A stretch of DNA of 64,000 bases from Basidiobolus meristosporus CBS 931.73. Taxonomy: Eukaryota > Basidiobolomycota > Basidiobolomycetes > Basidiobolales > Basidiobolaceae. The DNA lies in the NCBI GenBank assembly GCA_002104905.1, contig MCFE01000006.1, forward strand, positions 204,250-268,249. Direction: 5' to 3'. This document shows positions 57,925 through 64,000 of this stretch, piece by piece. How positions within the stretch are numbered: position 1 is the first letter of the stretch; every line of letters starts with the position of its first letter. Both the position numbers and the translations under genes were made by a program. The notes beneath the pieces are model-generated. The model saw only the letters and a program-made list of their open reading frames with translations, was not told where the DNA came from and did not search any database.

Positions 57925-58705
57925 CTTAGGGGGGAGACAGTCACCAACAGGTGAAATCTTTATTTCAGTTGAAACAAAGAAGCCAGCGCTACTGTTGTAG
58001 CTTTGATACAAGAGTGTGTAGCTGAGGGGAATTTGTAGGTAAGTTAATAAGAAGTGATGATAGTTCTTCAGTGCTCAAGACACTGTTCAGTGGGAAGGGG
58101 GGTAGCAAGAGAGGTAAGAATGACTTGTGAACAACATTACTGAGGGGAATGTGATAAGGATTGATATTCATCATAAAGGGAGTGTGCTGCTGCAGATATT
58201 GCTGCCAAAGGTCTGTCAAGTACTTCAGGTAGGCCAGCTTGGGTTTTTCTGACTGCAGAATATATTGAGCAAACTTCCTGACTTCAGGATCTCCAAGTAT
58301 AGTTCTCCAGCAGGAGCCAGGTGTTGTGTGGTGTGTTCTCTTCCAGGCCTTAATCAGTGGGTTGTTGCAGTTGTGAAGTCTGAGGTATAATCTGGTTCTA
58401 AGGTAGAGAAGTCTGATCTTATAGGGCATAAACCTAAAAGCACCAAGAATAGCATGTCTGTAGGGGCATTCAGGCAAATGAGGCACCAGGGAGGTAATGC
58501 ACCATACTGCAAACTTGTCAAGCTTAGTGCAGTCTCTAGAAGTAAGAGAGAGATGTGGTAAGCCAAATTCCAGGACAGGGAAGACAAACTGCTTGAGTAG
58601 AAGGAGGCAGCTGGGAGCTGAAGTGGTGGGAGGAGTAATGGCCAGTAGCTTGTGGAGTGCCTGGCTTGCCAGGATAATTCTCTTCTTCAGGTGTGCTCCA
58701 GAGTC
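57925..58705 (-). mobile_element. LINE-A copy 1, 5'-truncated, attached to TTAGGG
   Basis: The minus strand 5' to 3' is an open reading frame, a stop at 57,989, a short 3' UTR with AAATAAAGATTTCACC, a hairpin, then CCCCCCTAA. The 5' end is truncated exactly where the next element's TTAG(5) junction begins. Copy 2 at 61,017 is truncated elsewhere, as expected for LINEs. Confidence 0.8.
57989..58705 (-). CDS. LINE-A reverse transcriptase C-terminal region, 5'-truncated
   Basis: An open frame of 238 codons without internal stops up to the truncation point, ending HTLVSKLQQ. The part near the break, AHLKKRIILASQALHKLLA, followed by LKQFVFPVLEFGLPHLSL and LDKFAVWCITSLVPHLP, matches the post-catalytic thumb/connection region of LINE reverse transcriptases. 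The rest (AILGAFRFMPYKIRLLYLRT, then WKRTHHTTPGSCWRTILGDP) is the C-terminal segment. The catalytic palm is missing because of 5' truncation. No zinc knuckle or restriction-like endonuclease motif follows, unlike CRE/R2-type elements. An intact frame suggests recent insertion. Confidence 0.75.
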   Translation of the reverse strand, partial: DSGAHLKKRIILASQALHKLLAITPPTTSAPSCLLLLKQFVFPVLEFGLPHLSLTSRDCTKLDKFAVWCITSLVPHLPECPYRHAILGAFRFMPYKIRLLYLRTRLYLRLHNCNNPLIKAWKRTHHTTPGSCWRTILGDPEVRKFAQYILQSEKPKLAYLKYLTDLWQQYLQQHTPFMMNINPYHIPLSNVVHKSFLPLLLPPFPLNSVLSTEELSSLLINLPTNSPQLHTLVSKLQQ

Positions 58706-59232
58706 TTAGGGGGAGGAAAGTCACCAAATGGTGAAATCTTTATTTACTTATGACAAGTATCTAAAGAAGCCATGTTAATCTGAACTAATTCCTAGAAAGG
58801 TAGGTCTGAAAGATATCTTCCTGGTAAGCCAGGTCTGAGAGTTGAGAAGGTGAGTGGTACTATATTTCCTAGTTAGCTAGGTCTGAGAGAGGTTTCCTGG
58901 AAAGCCAGGCCTGAGAAGTGAGAATCTGAATATATCTGAGCTAAGTTATACTGGTTTGCGGTAGCTGGATTGTGGCCGGAAAGGCCAGTAGACTGGGGGA
59001 ACTCAGATGTATTTCTGGGCAATCACTGGCCAAATATACCAGGCAAATCTGGCCATTAGCATTTAAGGATTTCAGCCAATCAGAGCCTTTACTTTGCCCA
59101 ATGGTTGATCAAGCCATCTCCCAATGAGCACACATCAATTTATTAATCAAATTTTTTGCTGGATCCAGGATTTGAACCCACAACCATGGGTATGGAAGGG
59201 TTAGGGATAACTACAAGGCTAAGTGTTCTTGG
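58706..59232 (-). mobile_element. Telomeric SINE, full length, copy 1 (527 bp)
   Basis: The minus strand 5' to 3' has a start at ccaagaacac, a tRNA-like head with A-box TAGCCTTGTAG (59,221-59,211) and B-box GGTTCAAATCC (59,178-59,168), a body with four small hairpins (58,930-58,790), then GGCTTCTTT, AAATAAAGATTTCACC, a hairpin and CCCCCTAA. No protein is encoded. Both outer ends sit on TTAGGG. It shares its 3' tail with the neighbouring LINEs, as SINEs do with their partner. Confidence 0.75.
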
Positions 59233-59262
59233 TTAGGGGAGACAGTCACCAACAGGTGAAAT
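59233..59262 (-). mobile_element. LINE-A 3' stub, 30 bp
   Basis: Only ttaggggagacagtcacc plus the hairpin and gaaatc are present before the next TTAGGG. It carries the LINE-A-specific gagacag variant, so it is an extreme 5' truncation. Confidence 0.65.
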
Positions 59263-59263
59263 C

Positions 59264-59460
59264 TTAGGGTGTAGGTGTTATAGTAAGGGCTAGGAAAAGG
59301 TTAGAAGAGCAGGGGGTCAGGGGGACGCAGTCCCCTAGAGAATAAAAAAGCAGGGGGTTTGGGGAATGCAATCCCCCATACTCCTCCCATACTCTTTAAA
59401 TTCCCGTTGGATTACTTTTCTCTCATTCTTGATTCTGGTCACTTAGGGTTAGAATTCCTC
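59264..59460. repeat. Module C, copy 1
   Basis: Begins TTAGGGTGTAGGTGTTATAG. It contains two similar hairpins (gggggacgcagtcccc and a second one with loop GCA, here with a mutated stem) and ends at TTAGGGTTAGAATTCCTC. Copies 2 and 3 are at 60,799 and 61,761. Confidence 0.75.
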
Positions 59461-59643
59461 TTAGGGGGGGAGGAAAGTCACCAAGTGGTGAAATCTTTAT
59501 TTACTTATGACAAGTATCCAAAGAAGCCATGTTAATCTGAAGTAATTCCTAGAAAGCTAGGTCTGAGAGATATCTTCCTGGTAAGCCAGGTCTGAGAGTT
59601 GAGAAGCTGAGTGGTACTGTATTTCCTAGTTAGCTAGGTCTGA
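59461..59643 (-). mobile_element. Telomeric SINE, 5'-truncated copy
   Basis: Begins TTAG(7) with the SINE-type aggaaagtcacc tail. It covers three of the four hairpins and stops inside the hairpin array against GGTTAGG. The tRNA-like head is absent. Confidence 0.75.
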
Positions 59644-59644
59644 G

Positions 59645-59997
59645 GGTTAGGGGGGAGGGGAAGTCACCAAAGTAGGTGAAATCTTTATTTGATTTCAGAC
59701 AAGTCTAACTACAAATAAAGAAGCCAGCTGGGAATAGAAGATTCCCAAAGTAAACACTCAGTTGAATATGAATAAATCTAAGCTAAAGTTAAGGCAGTAT
59801 CCCAGAGTACACTGGAGCTCAGGTTCATGGGGGAGTGAAGTAGATAAGCTTGAGAGATATAATAATCTTTCAGGAAGTGGGTAACAGCAGGTGAAGGGGA
59901 GTTTTTGATAAGTGAAGTGAATCTTGAGAGCAGAGATTCCTCTAATGAGAAGGTCTTGTAAACTGGAGAATCAGGAAACTCTTTAAAGGCATGGTCA
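59645..59997 (-). mobile_element. LINE-B 3' part
   Basis: A third tail subtype (ggggaagtcaccaaagtagg) is followed by GGCTTCTTT and a minus-strand ORF whose last 70 or so codons end at 59,778 (FKEFPDSPVYKTFSLEESLL, then THFLKDYYISQAYLLHSP). The ORF is not similar to LINE-A in detail, so this is a separate lineage. It is joined at about 59,997 to Ty3/gypsy sequence. Confidence 0.6.
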
Positions 59998-60798
59998 GTA
60001 GTGTCAGGATACGTTGCACGTTGTGTATATGTTCTTCTACATTGGGGGAATATATCGTGATGTCGTCCAGATACACGAGGGCGCATTCCCATCGTAGATT
60101 TCCTAGCACCTTGTCGATCATCCTTTGGAATGTAGCGGGGGCATTGCACAAGCCAAAGGGTAGTTGGTTCCATTTGTATAATCCAAACAATGTTATAAAA
60201 GCGGTTTTGGGTTGATCTTCCAGGGCTACTTCTACTTGCCAATACCCAGAGATTAAGTCAAGAGAGCTAAAATATTTAGTTCCAATTAATCTGTCCAAGA
60301 GGTTGTCTATTTGCGGTAGCAGATACACGTCCTTCCGGGTGACAGCGTTCAATTTCCGGTAGTCAATGCAAAAGCGTCACTTTCCGTCTTTCTTTGGGAC
60401 TATCACTACGGGGGAGGCCCACGGAGACTGGCTCTCTGTAATGATGTTGTCTTTTAATAAAGTTTCAATCGTCTCTTTGATATAGTCTGTGTCAATTTTC
60501 AAATTCCTATAGGCTTTTTGCTTGATGGGGTATTTGTCGGCAAGGTGGATTTGGTGATATACCCCAGGTATATGACCAATTACTTGGTTCTTAGAGAATA
60601 CTCAGGCAAGCGGACATATTCCTTCTAGGAATTTGTCTTGTAATTTAGGTGGTAGACCAGGGTCCACATCTAGTTTGGGGAGTTCTTCTTCTGGTTCTTC
60701 ATTTGGAGGTGGTCCTTGGTCGTTTCCGTCAACTTCCTCTAAGTTTAACAATGGCACTCCTCTAGGCAATGCCACCGTGTGTTGCCCGTTGTTAACCA
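59998..60798 (-). pseudogene. Ty3/gypsy reverse transcriptase fragment captured in the array
   Basis: The minus strand has the pre-RT linker (VVNNGQHTVALPRGVPLLNL), then RT: SPWASPVVIVPKKDGK, YFSSLDLISGYWQVEVALED, LPFGLCNAPATFQRMIDKVL and the catalytic ALVYLDDITIYSP. One stop falls right after KKDGK (near 60,377) and the 60,602 block ends in another stop. There are no LTRs. Both edges abut telomeric modules (LINE-B and TTAGGG), so it is a captured DNA piece rather than a normal insertion. Confidence 0.85.
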
Positions 60799-61016
60799 CT
60801 TAGGGTGTAGGTGTTATAGTAAGGGCTAGGAAAAGGTTAGAAGAGCAGGGGGTCTGGGGGACGCAGTCCCCTAGAGAATAAAAAAGCAGGGGGTTTGGGG
60901 GATGCAATCCCCCATACTGCTCCCATACTCTTTAAATTCCCTTTGGATTACTTTTCTCTCATTCTTGGTTCTGGTCCCTTAGGGTTAGAATTTCTCCTCC
61001 TAACCCTTATCACCCT
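60799..61016. repeat. Module C, copy 2
   Basis: TTAGGGTGTAGGTG start as in copy 1. Both hairpins are perfect here (gggggacgcagtcccc; gggggatgcaatccccc). It extends past ttagggttagaatttctcc into taacccttatcaccc before the next junction. Confidence 0.78.
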
Positions 61017-61706
61017 TAGGGGGGGAGACAGTCACCAACAGGTGAAATCTTTATTTCAGTTGAAACAAAGAAGCCAGCGCTACTGTTGTAGCTTTGATAC
61101 AAGAGTGTGTAGCTGAGGGGAATTTGTAGGTAAGTTAATAAGAAGTGATGATAGCTCTTCAGTGCTCAAGACACTGTTCAGTGGGAAGGGGGGTAGCAAG
61201 AGAGGTAAGAATGACTTGTGAACAACATTAATGAGGGGAATGTGATAAGGATTGATATTCATCATAAATGGAGTGTGCTGCTGCAGATATTGCTGCCAAA
61301 GGTCTGTCAAGTACTTCAGGTAGGCCAGCTTGGGTTTTTCTGACTGCAGAATAAAGTGAACAAACTTCTTGACTTCAGGATCTCCAAGTATAGTTCTCCA
61401 GCAGGAGCCAGGTGTTGTGTGGTGTGTTCTCTTCCAGGCCTTAATCAGTGGGTTGTTGCAGTTGTGAAGTCTGAGGTATAATCTGGTTCTAAGGTAGAGA
61501 AGTCTGATCTTATAGGGCATAAACCCAAAAGCACCAAGAATAGCATGTCTGTAGGGGCATTCAGGCAAATGAGGCACCAAGGAGGTAATGCACCATACTG
61601 CAAACTTGTCAAGCTTAGTGCAGTCTCTAGAAGTAAGAGAGAGAAGTGGTAAGCCAAATTCCAGGACAGGGAAGACAAACTGCTTGAGTAGAAGGAGGCA
61701 GCTGGG
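61017..61706 (-). mobile_element. LINE-A copy 2, 5'-truncated
   Basis: Nearly identical to copy 1 over 690 bp, including the ORF ending at 61,080 without internal stops. It is truncated about 90 bp earlier than copy 1, after the codons for CLLLLKQFVFP, directly against TAGGGG. A few substitutions separate the copies (for example Leu-Ser to Leu-Ile near the stop). Confidence 0.85.
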
Positions 61707-61759
61707 GTAGGGGGAGGGAAAGTCACCAAGGTAGGTGAAATCTTTATTTGATTGCAGAC
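61707..61759 (-). mobile_element. LINE-B 3' stub, about 50 bp
   Basis: It carries the LINE-B tail subtype (ggtaggtgaaatctttattt, then gattgcagac) and ends at acTTAGGG. Confidence 0.65.
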
Positions 61760-61985
61760 ACTTAGGGTGTAGGTGTTATAGTAAGGGCTAGGAAAAGGTT
61801 AGAAGAGCAGGGGGTCTGGGGGACGCAGTCCCCTAGAGAATAAAAAAGCAGGGGGTTTGGGGGATGCAATCCCCCATACTGCTCTTATACTCTTTAAATT
61901 CCCATTGGATTACTTTTCTCTCATTCTTGGTTCTGGTCCCTTAGGGTTAGAATTCCTCCTCCTAACCCTTATCACCCTAACCATA
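61760..61985. repeat. Module C, copy 3
   Basis: Same start and hairpins as copy 2, but it does not end at a TTAG junction. It continues (caccctaaccataaatat) into the 62-63 kb sequence, which may therefore be more of the same family. Confidence 0.7.
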
Positions 61986-63220
61986 AATATTTTTACCCTA
62001 CAATTGGCACATTGTCTGCTCATATGGTGGGCATGTCTGGGCCAATATTTGTCTCCCTATACTGTCCATACGCTCTGTATAAGTCTTGATGACTATTTAA
62101 TTAATAAATTGTTATTTTTAATATATATCTAATAATTAATGGGATTCATCCCAATCTGACCACAATCCCATATTTTGATAAGCTTCGGGCACCATAAATT
62201 GCGCGGCCCTAATATGATAAAAAAATTCATGGCCAATACAAATTTTCTGTAACCTGATTGCTTTTACCAAATATAAAGTGTATCCAAAAGTTCAATATAT
62301 ATTATGGCTATAATAGAAACTTTATTGGACACCATCGCAACTACTACTTATGTTCTATGCGCACATGTATCCCGCGGGAATTGTAAAACTTAGCCACGTG
62401 GTACAAAAGTGCTTTAATTTTTCATCATGATAGTTTTACATGAGTTCCTAACGCACTTTGAAAGTACGCAGTAGCCATACCCCAACAGGTTTTAAGGATG
62501 TCCACTAGCTACGTCTACTTGTGTCTAGCGGGAGCCATCAATCATCAGCCGCGCAATACTGAAATGCTTTTATTTTTCATCATGCTAGTTTTGTATGAAT
62601 CCCTAACGCACTTTCATAGTGCGCGGTAACCATACCCCAACAGGTTTTAAGGATACCCACTTGCTACGTTTACTTGTGTCTAGCGGGAGTCATCAATCAT
62701 CAGCCGCGCGGTAAAAAAGTGCTTTTATTTTTCATCATGATAGTTTTACATGAGTCCCTAATGCACTTTTATAGTGCGCGGTAACCATACCCCCAGAAAG
62801 TAGTGTGGATGCTTACTTTAAACGCTCACTTGTGTATTGTACGGAATATCAAGAAACAGCCGCGTGGGAATGGAACATCATAGAAAAGCATTGCTTTGTT
62901 GTTAGCAAGTATTGATGCGCAAATAGTGGTACTATGTGAATTATTGAGTAACTATTTACTCTAGTTGGTTCCAAGATATTCCTAGACAATATGCTCAAAA
63001 TCAATATTAGCATCAATAGCTTGCTCTTTGATCACTAAACCACCGCACCCAATATGCGGTGGCCTTGGTTTTGTCTAGCCGTCAAGGAATGAAACCAGAG
63101 TACAGTCACAAGAGAGGCAAAAGTGAAATGTGATGAAGTAAGTGTATATGAAAGTAATATAAATCTACAGGACAGAAGAGAACAACTAGTAGTTAAACAG
63201 CACTCACTGACACTCCACCG
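61986..63220. other. Unique subtelomeric segment between modules
   Basis: AT-rich at first, then a 155-bp tandem repeat (62,398-62,870), then about 350 bp of unremarkable sequence. No gene seen. Confidence 0.45.
62398..62870. repeat. 155-bp tandem repeat, three units
   Basis: The units are marked by gctttnatttttcatcatg at 62,411, 62,566 and 62,721, exactly 155 bp apart. Each has a small inverted repeat (cgcact/agtgcg) around 62,600 and its equivalents, and the phrase accataccccaacagg. The third unit diverges in its second half. Confidence 0.85.
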
Positions 63221-63238
63221 AGGGTTAGGGTTAGGGTT
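63221..63238 (+). repeat. Interstitial telomere repeats at the outer SINE junction
   Basis: Three TTAGGG units before the run of nine G that starts the terminal SINE. It marks a former chromosome terminus. Confidence 0.85.
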
Positions 63239-63768
63239 AGGGGGGGGGAGGAAAGTCACCAAGTGGTGAAATCTTTATTTACTTATGACAAGTATCTAAA
63301 GAAGCCAAGTTAATCTGAAGTTTTTCCTAGAAAGCTAGGTCTGAGAGATATCTTCCTGGTAAGCCAGGTCTGAGAGTTGAGAAGCTGAGTGGTCTATATT
63401 TCCTAGTTAGCTAGGTCTGAGAGTGGTTTCCTGGAAAGCCAGGCCTGAGAAGTGAGAATCTGAATATATCTGAGCTAAGTTATACTGGTTTGCGGTAGCT
63501 GAATTGTGGCTGGAATGGCCAGTAGACTGGGGGAACTGAGAGGAATTTCTGGGCAATCACTGGCCAAATTTACTAGGCAAATCTGGCCAATTAGCATTTC
63601 AAGGATTTCGGCCAATCAGTGCCTTTACTTTGCCTGATGGTTGATCAAGCCATCTCCCAATGAGCACACATCAATTTATTAATCAAATTTTGCTGGATCC
63701 AGGATTTGAACCCACAACCATGGGTATGGAAGGGTTAGGGATAACCACAAGGCTATGTGTTCTTGGTT
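63239..63768 (-). mobile_element. Telomeric SINE, full length, terminal copy
   Basis: About 530 bp and closely similar to 58,706-59,232. The minus strand A-box TAGCCTTGTGG is at 63,755-63,745 and the B-box GGTTCAAATCC at 63,712-63,702, 43 nt apart as in a real tRNA. Four hairpins follow (63,450-63,325), then the shared tail. Its 5' end touches the live telomere. Confidence 0.78.
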
Positions 63769-64000
63769 GGGTTAGGGTTAGGGTTAGGGTTAGGGTTAGG
63801 GTTAGGGTTAGGGTTAGGGTTAGGGTTAGGGTTAGGGTTAGGGTTAGGGTTAGGGTTAGGGTTAGGGTTAGGGTTAGGGTTAGGGTTAGGGTTAGGGTTA
63901 GGGTTAGGGTTAGGGTTAGGGTTAGGGTTAGGGTTAGGGTTAGGGTTAGGGTTAGGGTTAGGGTTAGGGTTAGGGTTAGGGTTAGGGTTAGGTTAGGTTA
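63766..64000 (+). repeat. Telomere, (TTAGGG)n
   Basis: About 38 exact hexamers run 5' to 3' toward the right edge, so this is the G-rich strand of a right chromosome end. The final bases read ggttaggttaggtta, that is, TTAGG pentamers, which may be real variants or end-of-read errors. Confidence 0.98.

Follow-up and report, generated by a model that had tools for sequence, protein, structure and literature searches.

Telomere-attached arrays of LINEs, gag-only elements and SINE-like elements with a common 3' end in Basidiobolus meristosporus

Telomere-attached retroelements are represented by HeT-A, TART and TAHRE of Drosophila, which are stacked at chromosome ends with their 3' end inward, combine gag-only with reverse transcriptase (RT)-bearing members, vary in 5' truncation and carry an oligo-A tail. 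In Bombyx, TRAS and SART insert within TTAGG arrays by means of an active, specific endonuclease, and the endonuclease-poor Penelope-like elements (PLEs) Athena and Coprina are found on short telomeric tracts, fungi included. Endonuclease-independent L1 insertion at dysfunctional mammalian telomeres was reportedly observed by Morrish and co-workers in 2007 as an occasional event in mutant cells, with priming by uncapped ends proposed. Among fungal elements, the relevant sections on the MoTeRs of Magnaporthe oryzae assign MoTeR1, with its restriction-like endonuclease, to the SLACS/CRE kind and describe MoTeR2 as having an unrelated insert and no gag homologue (PMC7367193). FoTeR (PMC12857005) and Cnl1 (PMC12810828) are placed by their authors, in the parts of these accounts that concern classification, with MoTeR1/CRE or R2. 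Here we analyse an array at a contig end of the fungus B. meristosporus CBS 931.73, sequenced with PacBio according to the pertinent part of its description (PMC7466969). The window, i.e. the whole stretch of 64,000 nucleotides under study, closes contig C868 on the right (MCFE01000006.1, positions 204250-268249 of 268249); the assembly comprises 89.0 Mb in 1311 contigs. The outermost part of the window is a head-to-tail array of long interspersed nuclear elements (LINEs), short interspersed nuclear element (SINE)-like sequences and other repeats, which an original prediction had recognised as a LINE/SINE array attached to the telomere.

The elements are joined by a characteristic hairpin tail, located at 57940, 58720, 59245, 59477, 59663, 61031, 61722 and 63255 of the window, in all eight cases on the + strand; dinucleotide shuffles of the window gave no such tail. 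Read on the - strand, each tail resembles the 3' end of an RNA: AATAAAG in most cases, then ATTTCACC-loop-GGTGACT-pyrimidines-C-run. TTAGGG adjoins the end of the C-run on the centromere side. Eight inner junctions composed of TTA and 4-9 G had been proposed; all eight tails were found and seven junctions show the full form, while by sequence reading the one near 61,708 is GGGGTAGGGGG, with incomplete TTA. The largely single orientation with 3' ends inward, and with it the anticipated HeT-A- and MoTeR-like order of head-to-tail copies with variable 5' truncation, was borne out both in the window and in the genome.

The telomere-attached element array is confirmed as real and genome-wide. Across the assembly there are 1,492 forward and 134 reverse hairpin tails. 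Tails adjacent to TTAGGGG account for 1,350 forward and 114 reverse occurrences (1,464 in total), compared to 3 and 2 for a reversed-pattern control. TTAGGG arrays, counted by their starts in a single phase with five or more units, are forward in 102 cases and reverse in one, meaning that nearly all contigs run with the telomere to the right, and forward tails accordingly have their 3' end inward. Among the first 100 listed tails, 82 recur in the TTAGGGG-adjacent set; most sampled copies stand at telomeric junctions, as had been expected. No tail was detected in a scan of viral contigs. In addition, 30 loci (L040-L069) were picked by the presence of a TTAGGG array alone, ignoring their element content. 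In 22 of them, a copy of one of the families A, B, C or S (the SINE-like element) ends at the array or up to about 110 nt from it (10 A, 6 S, 5 B and 1 C), with many different truncation points; of the rest, L052 shows a weak 44-bp match and seven are without any element match. Arrays reach the contig end in 29 of the 30 loci, while the remaining one, L045 (among the 22), has a 42-nt tract in the interior of a contig whose end falls inside a SINE-like copy. The longest arrays of these loci have a median of 201 bp, which may be shortened by contig ends. In L054 (1440-1500), inspection by eye suggests that the telomere starts right at the end of a tRNA-like sequence.

One tail is common to an intact RT-bearing LINE (LINE-A), to pieces of families D and F, to the gag-only families B and C, and to the SINE-like element of 530 bp. 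At the RNA level, the shared 3' end consists of AATAAAGATTTCACC, a short loop, GGTGACT, pyrimidines and the C-run, with small family variations, among them small changes in family F and in a further tail, E. LINEs and SINE-like elements are thus both present as predicted, and the community is richer than that, with several RT-bearing LINEs, two gag-only families and captured gypsy pieces.

The full-length LINE that had been sought is LINE-A. Its full copy in locus L070 is about 4.56 kb long and has open reading frame (ORF) 1 of 523 amino acids, one in-frame UGA, and ORF2 of 922 amino acids. Of 1,388 candidates, 49 matches were scored; every one is full length and 99-100% identical, 47 of them are stop-free, and they point to recent copying, either through RNA or between ends. 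ORF1 has a cysteine cluster close to the N-terminus (recognised by eye) and a relative of 55% in B. ranarum, and ORF2 matches RVT_1 in Pfam (2.6e-25), together with weak matches to the second half of the apurinic/apyrimidinic (APE)-type endonuclease. For a host protein, the closest relative likewise comes from B. ranarum (67%). At L070:2920-2922 (- strand), ORF1 and ORF2 are in one frame, parted by the UGA, and no AUG is present at the start of ORF2. The UGA is followed by CUA in 5/5 matches to the stretch preceding it in the examined loci, some of which overlap. UGA-CUA is a known readthrough context and, combined with the single frame and the absent AUG, suggests possible translation of ORF2 as a fusion by readthrough.

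For family B (L076, L078), scoring of 150 among 550 candidates gave 151 matches, many of which contain an ORF of about 271 amino acids, and copies have TTAGGG on both sides. The ORF directly adjoins the 3' untranslated region and the tail, which leaves family B without space for an RT. The 5' part of the element contains tandem repeats of about 0.1 kb in variable copy number (L078, L063). Family C (L073) has a 285-amino-acid ORF of the same kind. The B and C proteins share 41%, and they are related to the C-terminal part of LINE-A ORF1 (35% for B, 1e-21; 29% for C). Families D (L034, L001) and F (L039, tail near 1641) are known from pieces. In D, a different LINE RT C-terminus, with an RT motif noted by eye, precedes the same kind of tail; in F, the LINE RT C-terminus matches RVT_1 at 0.0095, below the cut-off. 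The SINE-like element, about 530 bp long, agrees with SINEs in being short, non-coding, present in high copy number and sharing its 3' end with a LINE. Its exact tail was found 384 times forward and 23 times reverse, and its exact head 207 and 9 times. The 5' end contains B-box-like GGTTCAAATCC and A-box-like TAGCCTTGTGG motifs; neither Rfam nor ARAGORN reported a tRNA in the head, and a tRNA origin was set aside in favour of a claim limited to box-like motifs.

In the window, the array begins with a 5'-truncated LINE-A at 57926..58706 (98.2% to the full-length copy), comprised of the 3' tail and the ORF2 C-terminus, with an open frame of 238 amino acids at 57989-58705 belonging to the LINE-A family; this and all following LINE, SINE-like and gypsy segments read on the - strand. 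It is followed by a full-length SINE-like element at 58706..59238 (96.1% over 532 bp), whose outer end GTGTTCTTGG joins the TTAGGGG of the next tail. This is a LINE-A tail alone, of about 30 nt (59233..59263, from sequence reading and tail match), which continues into TTAGGGTGTAGG. A truncated EL210 repeat (59264..59460, 95.9% over 196 bp), a 5'-truncated SINE-like element (59461..59644, 98.4% over 183 bp) and LINE-B, 5'-truncated within its ORF (59647..60001, 98.9% over 349 bp), come next. The LINE-B piece (59653-60001) passes directly, with no TTAGGG between, into a Ty3/gypsy RT fragment of the same sense (59999..60800), which was translated and named by eye from RT motifs; Pfam gave no match for its sub-frame 59778-60257. 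Further outward are an EL210 repeat (60801..61016, 98.1%), a 5'-truncated LINE-A (61016..61706, 99.0% over 684 bp), a LINE-B tail alone of about 50 nt (61707..61760, 49 bp match) and another EL210 repeat (61762..61985, by repeat match) with a 155-bp satellite outward of it (2.5 tandem copies at 62405..62793, by tandem-repeat detection). Three TTAGGG units (63225..63242, + strand) form the base of the outermost, nearly full-length SINE-like element (63238..63771, 97.4% over 531 bp), and the contig ends with the terminal array of about 39 TTAGGG units (63772..64000, + strand), both by repeat count.

Truncation of the outer (5') ends at varied points was correctly predicted, but not that it always falls onto TTAGGG: three outer ends in the window are other than plain TTAGGG, one passing into the gypsy RT and two stopping on EL210 (59264, 61762), whose own start is TTAGGGTGTAGG. 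Ty3/gypsy pieces in element sense are placed outward of LINE-B copies in the window (59999-60800) and in L072 (1631-3070), the latter with RNase H and integrase recognised by Pfam. EL210 has the inner end TTAGGGTGTAGGTG and is frequently truncated outward (the three window copies, 59264-59460, 60801-61016 and 61762-61985, as well as L073 and L066). In L073, EL210 is succeeded by the 155-bp satellite and by a gene that matches SNF2 (5.2e-13) and, weakly, Kelch; this may be a helicase region linked to telomeres.

To characterize the junctions, 132 non-redundant tails were collected from the examined loci, a non-random sample of 30 best LINE-A matches, 30 telomeric arrays and smaller sets. Of these, 122 were assigned and measured; the ten left out are eight unassigned tails (one of them, C531:94721 R, being probably a palindromic reading of its neighbour) and two of doubtful family. 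The G-run length is family-specific, mostly 6-7 in A, 5-6 in S, and 4 in B and D, and the TTA is missing or partial at 18 of the 122 junctions. These two findings speak against the proposed RNA ending in CCCTAA: the element would supply the C-run, and the TTA would come from the chromosome end. The telomere-matching stretch preceding the G-run is at most 11 nt long in 114/122 junctions (the longest is 39 nt), and the inner flank, with GGG counted, does not exceed 14 nt in 114/122. At the outermost tail on 24 contigs with a terminal array, the linker is likewise short (up to 9 nt in 22/24), while uniform insertion into an array of 180 bp would yield such short flanks in about 8% of cases. The base preceding a TTA-starting stretch is C in 30 of 49 linkers, against a background of 0.22. 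A hand count of terminal arrays found C at the same position in 13 of 21 (eight array-internal interruptions and the internal tract of L045 were left out of the 30). Such a signature common to linkers and true telomeres suggests that both were made by telomerase, and it makes TTAGGG linkers encoded in the element RNA less likely, as does the often incomplete TTA.

Internal truncated junctions of A, B, C and S fall at 33 distinct positions among 35, linker and G-run lengths differ from junction to junction, and fragments comprised only of the tail, about 20-50 nt long, occur. Among internal junctions of the SINE-like element, 18/26 are located at the reference 5' end or within 2 nt of it, compared to 2/25 for LINE-A, one of which is the reference copy itself. 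Dominance of full-length 5' ends in the short element and not in LINE-A would follow from random stopping of synthesis or of later erosion. In pairs of adjacent copies, the outer one is more similar to the reference in 28/42.

We consider it fairly probable that these elements form a telomere-dependent community of non-LTR (lacking long terminal repeats) retroelements, in which the C-run at the RNA 3' end is copied on a nearly bare GGG end and telomerase subsequently heals the product. In this scheme, RT-bearing LINEs (A, and D and F as far as their pieces tell) would provide the enzyme, and the gag-only families and the SINE-like element are proposed to ride on it, since all share one RNA 3' end. 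The RT would bind the tail hairpin, and the C-run would pair with the 3' GGG of an end holding about 0.5-2 TTAGGG units, either freshly healed or critically short. Reverse transcription would then lengthen the G-strand outward, leaving the RNA 3' end inward; it would halt at a variable point, at times after 20-50 nt, and at times switch to another RNA such as gypsy. Telomerase would add TTAGGG to the cDNA end, and a telomere still short would receive a further element, until about 30 units cap it. Two reverse transcriptases, of the LINE and of telomerase, alternating at one 3' end appear to be the most economical account. Tail fragments of about 20-50 nt fit addition to ends, the gypsy sequence joined to the LINE-B truncation (59999) would fit template switching, and the similarity trend of outer copies agrees with it weakly. 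The TERT RNA-binding domain was matched twice above threshold (1.6e-8 and 9.7e-7) at C880:173109-173423, with one in-frame TAG, perhaps an intron edge, in the second match. Telomerase thus appears to be retained beside the elements, TERT being known here from domain matches and not as a complete gene.

An endonuclease that nicks TTAGGG near the array base, followed by ordinary target-primed reverse transcription in the manner of TRAS/SART or MoTeR, would also produce a single orientation, owing to the asymmetric target. We regard this as unlikely, yet as the most serious competitor. MoTeR arrays are also short-linkered and in one orientation, and their authors suspect site-specific insertion in the sections devoted to it (PMC7367193). 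An APE-type endonuclease domain is present in LINE-A, at least its second half, with Exo_endo_phos_2 below the Pfam cut-off; the domain keeps YLPP, GDLN, VDW and SDH. On the other hand, the motif-II Glu (SETH/TETW/QETH) is found in all 16 proteins having this stretch among 17 aligned non-relative LINE proteins, and LINE-A and its two relatives P0001 and P0003 read IDV[QK] instead. LINE-A and P0001 are 55% identical in the endonuclease part and 68% in the RT. A hidden Markov model of 16 other endonuclease domains aligned to LINE-A residues 84-165 alone (the control P0013 was within the training set). We read this as a nuclease that is probably weakened or changed, rather than as proven loss; a one-residue shift could put Asp at this position. 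Nuclease-directed insertion is further opposed by inner flanks that are comparably short at outermost tails, next to arrays of about 200 bp, and copies comprised only of the tail are hard to explain as internal insertions.

In a second alternative, which we hold improbable, retrotranspositions are few, arrays grow for the most part by recombination and break-induced copying between ends, and truncations stem from erosion healed by telomerase. Recombination growth is reported for MoTeR arrays in the part of the M. oryzae study dealing with it (PMC7367193), two tandem LINE-A pieces in L072 terminate within 3 nt of one another, and erosion with healing would leave an identical 5' signature. Nevertheless, the nearly all distinct truncation points and the variable linkers and G-runs speak against it, as do the 49 near-identical LINE-A copies, inasmuch as their recent copying went via RNA and not end to end. 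Finally, an assembly artefact, with contigs broken or collapsed at repeats mimicking a terminal pile-up, is very improbable: the 102 to 1 excess of right-end telomeres is indeed unusual, but contigs broken at repeats should occur in either orientation and lack a TTAGGG array, while here arrays of about 200 bp cap unrelated truncation points and linkers vary inside single contigs. About 100 arrays in one phase, nearly all contig-right, suggest many small chromosomes combined with an assembler quirk.

Several observations weigh against addition to chromosome ends. The LINE-A endonuclease, retaining GDLN and SDH, may cut. Outermost linkers are slightly longer than the others (medians 7 and 5 nt, p 0.035). 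After 65 of 137 5' junctions without a reference family and 20 SINE-like junctions near the full 5' end were excluded, the 52 kept showed no consistent excess of microhomology (mean 1.49 in linkers and 0.33 where a terminal array follows; chance would give 0.77). The gradient in similarity is slight, with a Spearman coefficient of -0.25 both for LINE-A (p 0.018) and for the SINE-like element (p 0.13), and many of its loci were selected as best matches. Among the 100 listed tails, 18 are without adjacent TTAGGGG, and 10 of 126 LINE-A and SINE-like segments are at least 12 kb from a contig end. Reversed or internal arrays are also present: C726 has arrays in both directions on one contig (about 56-68 kb), and C558 has a reversed internal array bearing TTAGGG junctions (about 96-99 kb), which we take for ancient fusions of ends or for joins made in assembly. 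The short linkers may be the ones that persisted, by analogy with M. oryzae, where internal TTAGGG tracts longer than 3 units break according to the passage on their fragility (PMC7367193), and 5' truncations could reflect terminal erosion instead of an early RT stop. Priming by the C-run is inferred from G-run statistics, and the whole account is drawn from sequence.

More tentatively, and with clear doubt, a three-tier guild may be envisaged, comprised of RT LINEs with disabled endonuclease, HeT-A-like gag-only elements and SINEs, which would hardly insert elsewhere, extend uncapped GGG ends and alternate with telomerase as a standing end-repair backup in a fungus with many chromosomes. The best-known telomere elements of the gag-only type are those of Drosophila, which has lost telomerase. 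If true, a division of labour joined by SINEs beside TTAGGG and a TERT domain would mean that such guilds arise alongside telomerase and not solely after its loss. The 1,464 junctions in one genome offer material on how retroelements and telomerase share an end. A literature search, which is no proof of absence, found no telomere-dedicated SINE, and the wording "subtelomeric SINE" only for frogs.

Compared to known systems, the arrays resemble HeT-A/TART/TAHRE in head-to-tail order at chromosome ends with the 3' end inward, in pairing a gag-only element with an RT-bearing partner, and in variable 5' truncation. They differ from these in that telomerase appears not to be replaced, to judge by the TTAGGG arrays and the TERT domain, in that SINE-like elements join in, and in a common 3' end made of a hairpin and C-run instead of oligo-A. 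As with TRAS/SART, LINEs of the APE type are associated with telomeric repeats, and the host has kept those repeats; in contrast, copies here stand behind linkers of at most 11 nt in 114/122 junctions and not within arrays, and a catalytic residue, the motif-II Glu, looks lost. The priming proposed for endonuclease-independent mammalian L1 is the same, reportedly occasional there, whereas here the telomere is the main site of several families. Penelope/Coprina affiliation was rejected because the RT is of the RVT_1 kind and similar to L1 ORF2p, with no PLE model searched on its own; a Helitron (hairpin plus CTAA) was rejected because the base after CTAA is G or C, not T, in window junctions having CTAA, with Rep/helicase not searched for.

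Likeness to MoTeR, as far as the corresponding sections of its description go (PMC7367193), includes head-to-tail order with 5' ends facing the chromosome terminus, separators of short TTAGGG tracts, a non-autonomous partner with common ends, and truncated 5' ends marked by C or by a short seed; of 23 truncated MoTeRs, 17 show in-frame seeds and five of the other six end in C. Unlike MoTeR1, with its restriction-like endonuclease and CRE affinity, LINE-A has an APE-like endonuclease and an RT nearer to L1 than to R2 by a comparison of PDB match scores (ORF2 to L1 ORF2p 7.7e-13, to R2 5.5e-4). The gag-only partners are homologous to the LINE's own ORF1, and a SINE is not mentioned in those sections on MoTeR (PMC7367193). 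FoTeR and Cnl1 are likewise fungal telomere-associated LINEs, the former with upstream tandem repeats comparable to the 5' repeats of family B (PMC12857005) and the latter in subtelomeric arrays (PMC12810828); the portions of these two accounts considered here mention no community of gag-only elements and SINEs (PMC12857005, PMC12810828). The B. meristosporus community works like HeT-A/TART and MoTeR and, by the features compared, is a member of neither. It is distinct in its APE-like LINE, in two families of gag-only elements with homology to ORF1 of that LINE, in its SINE, and in existing alongside TTAGGG arrays and a TERT domain.

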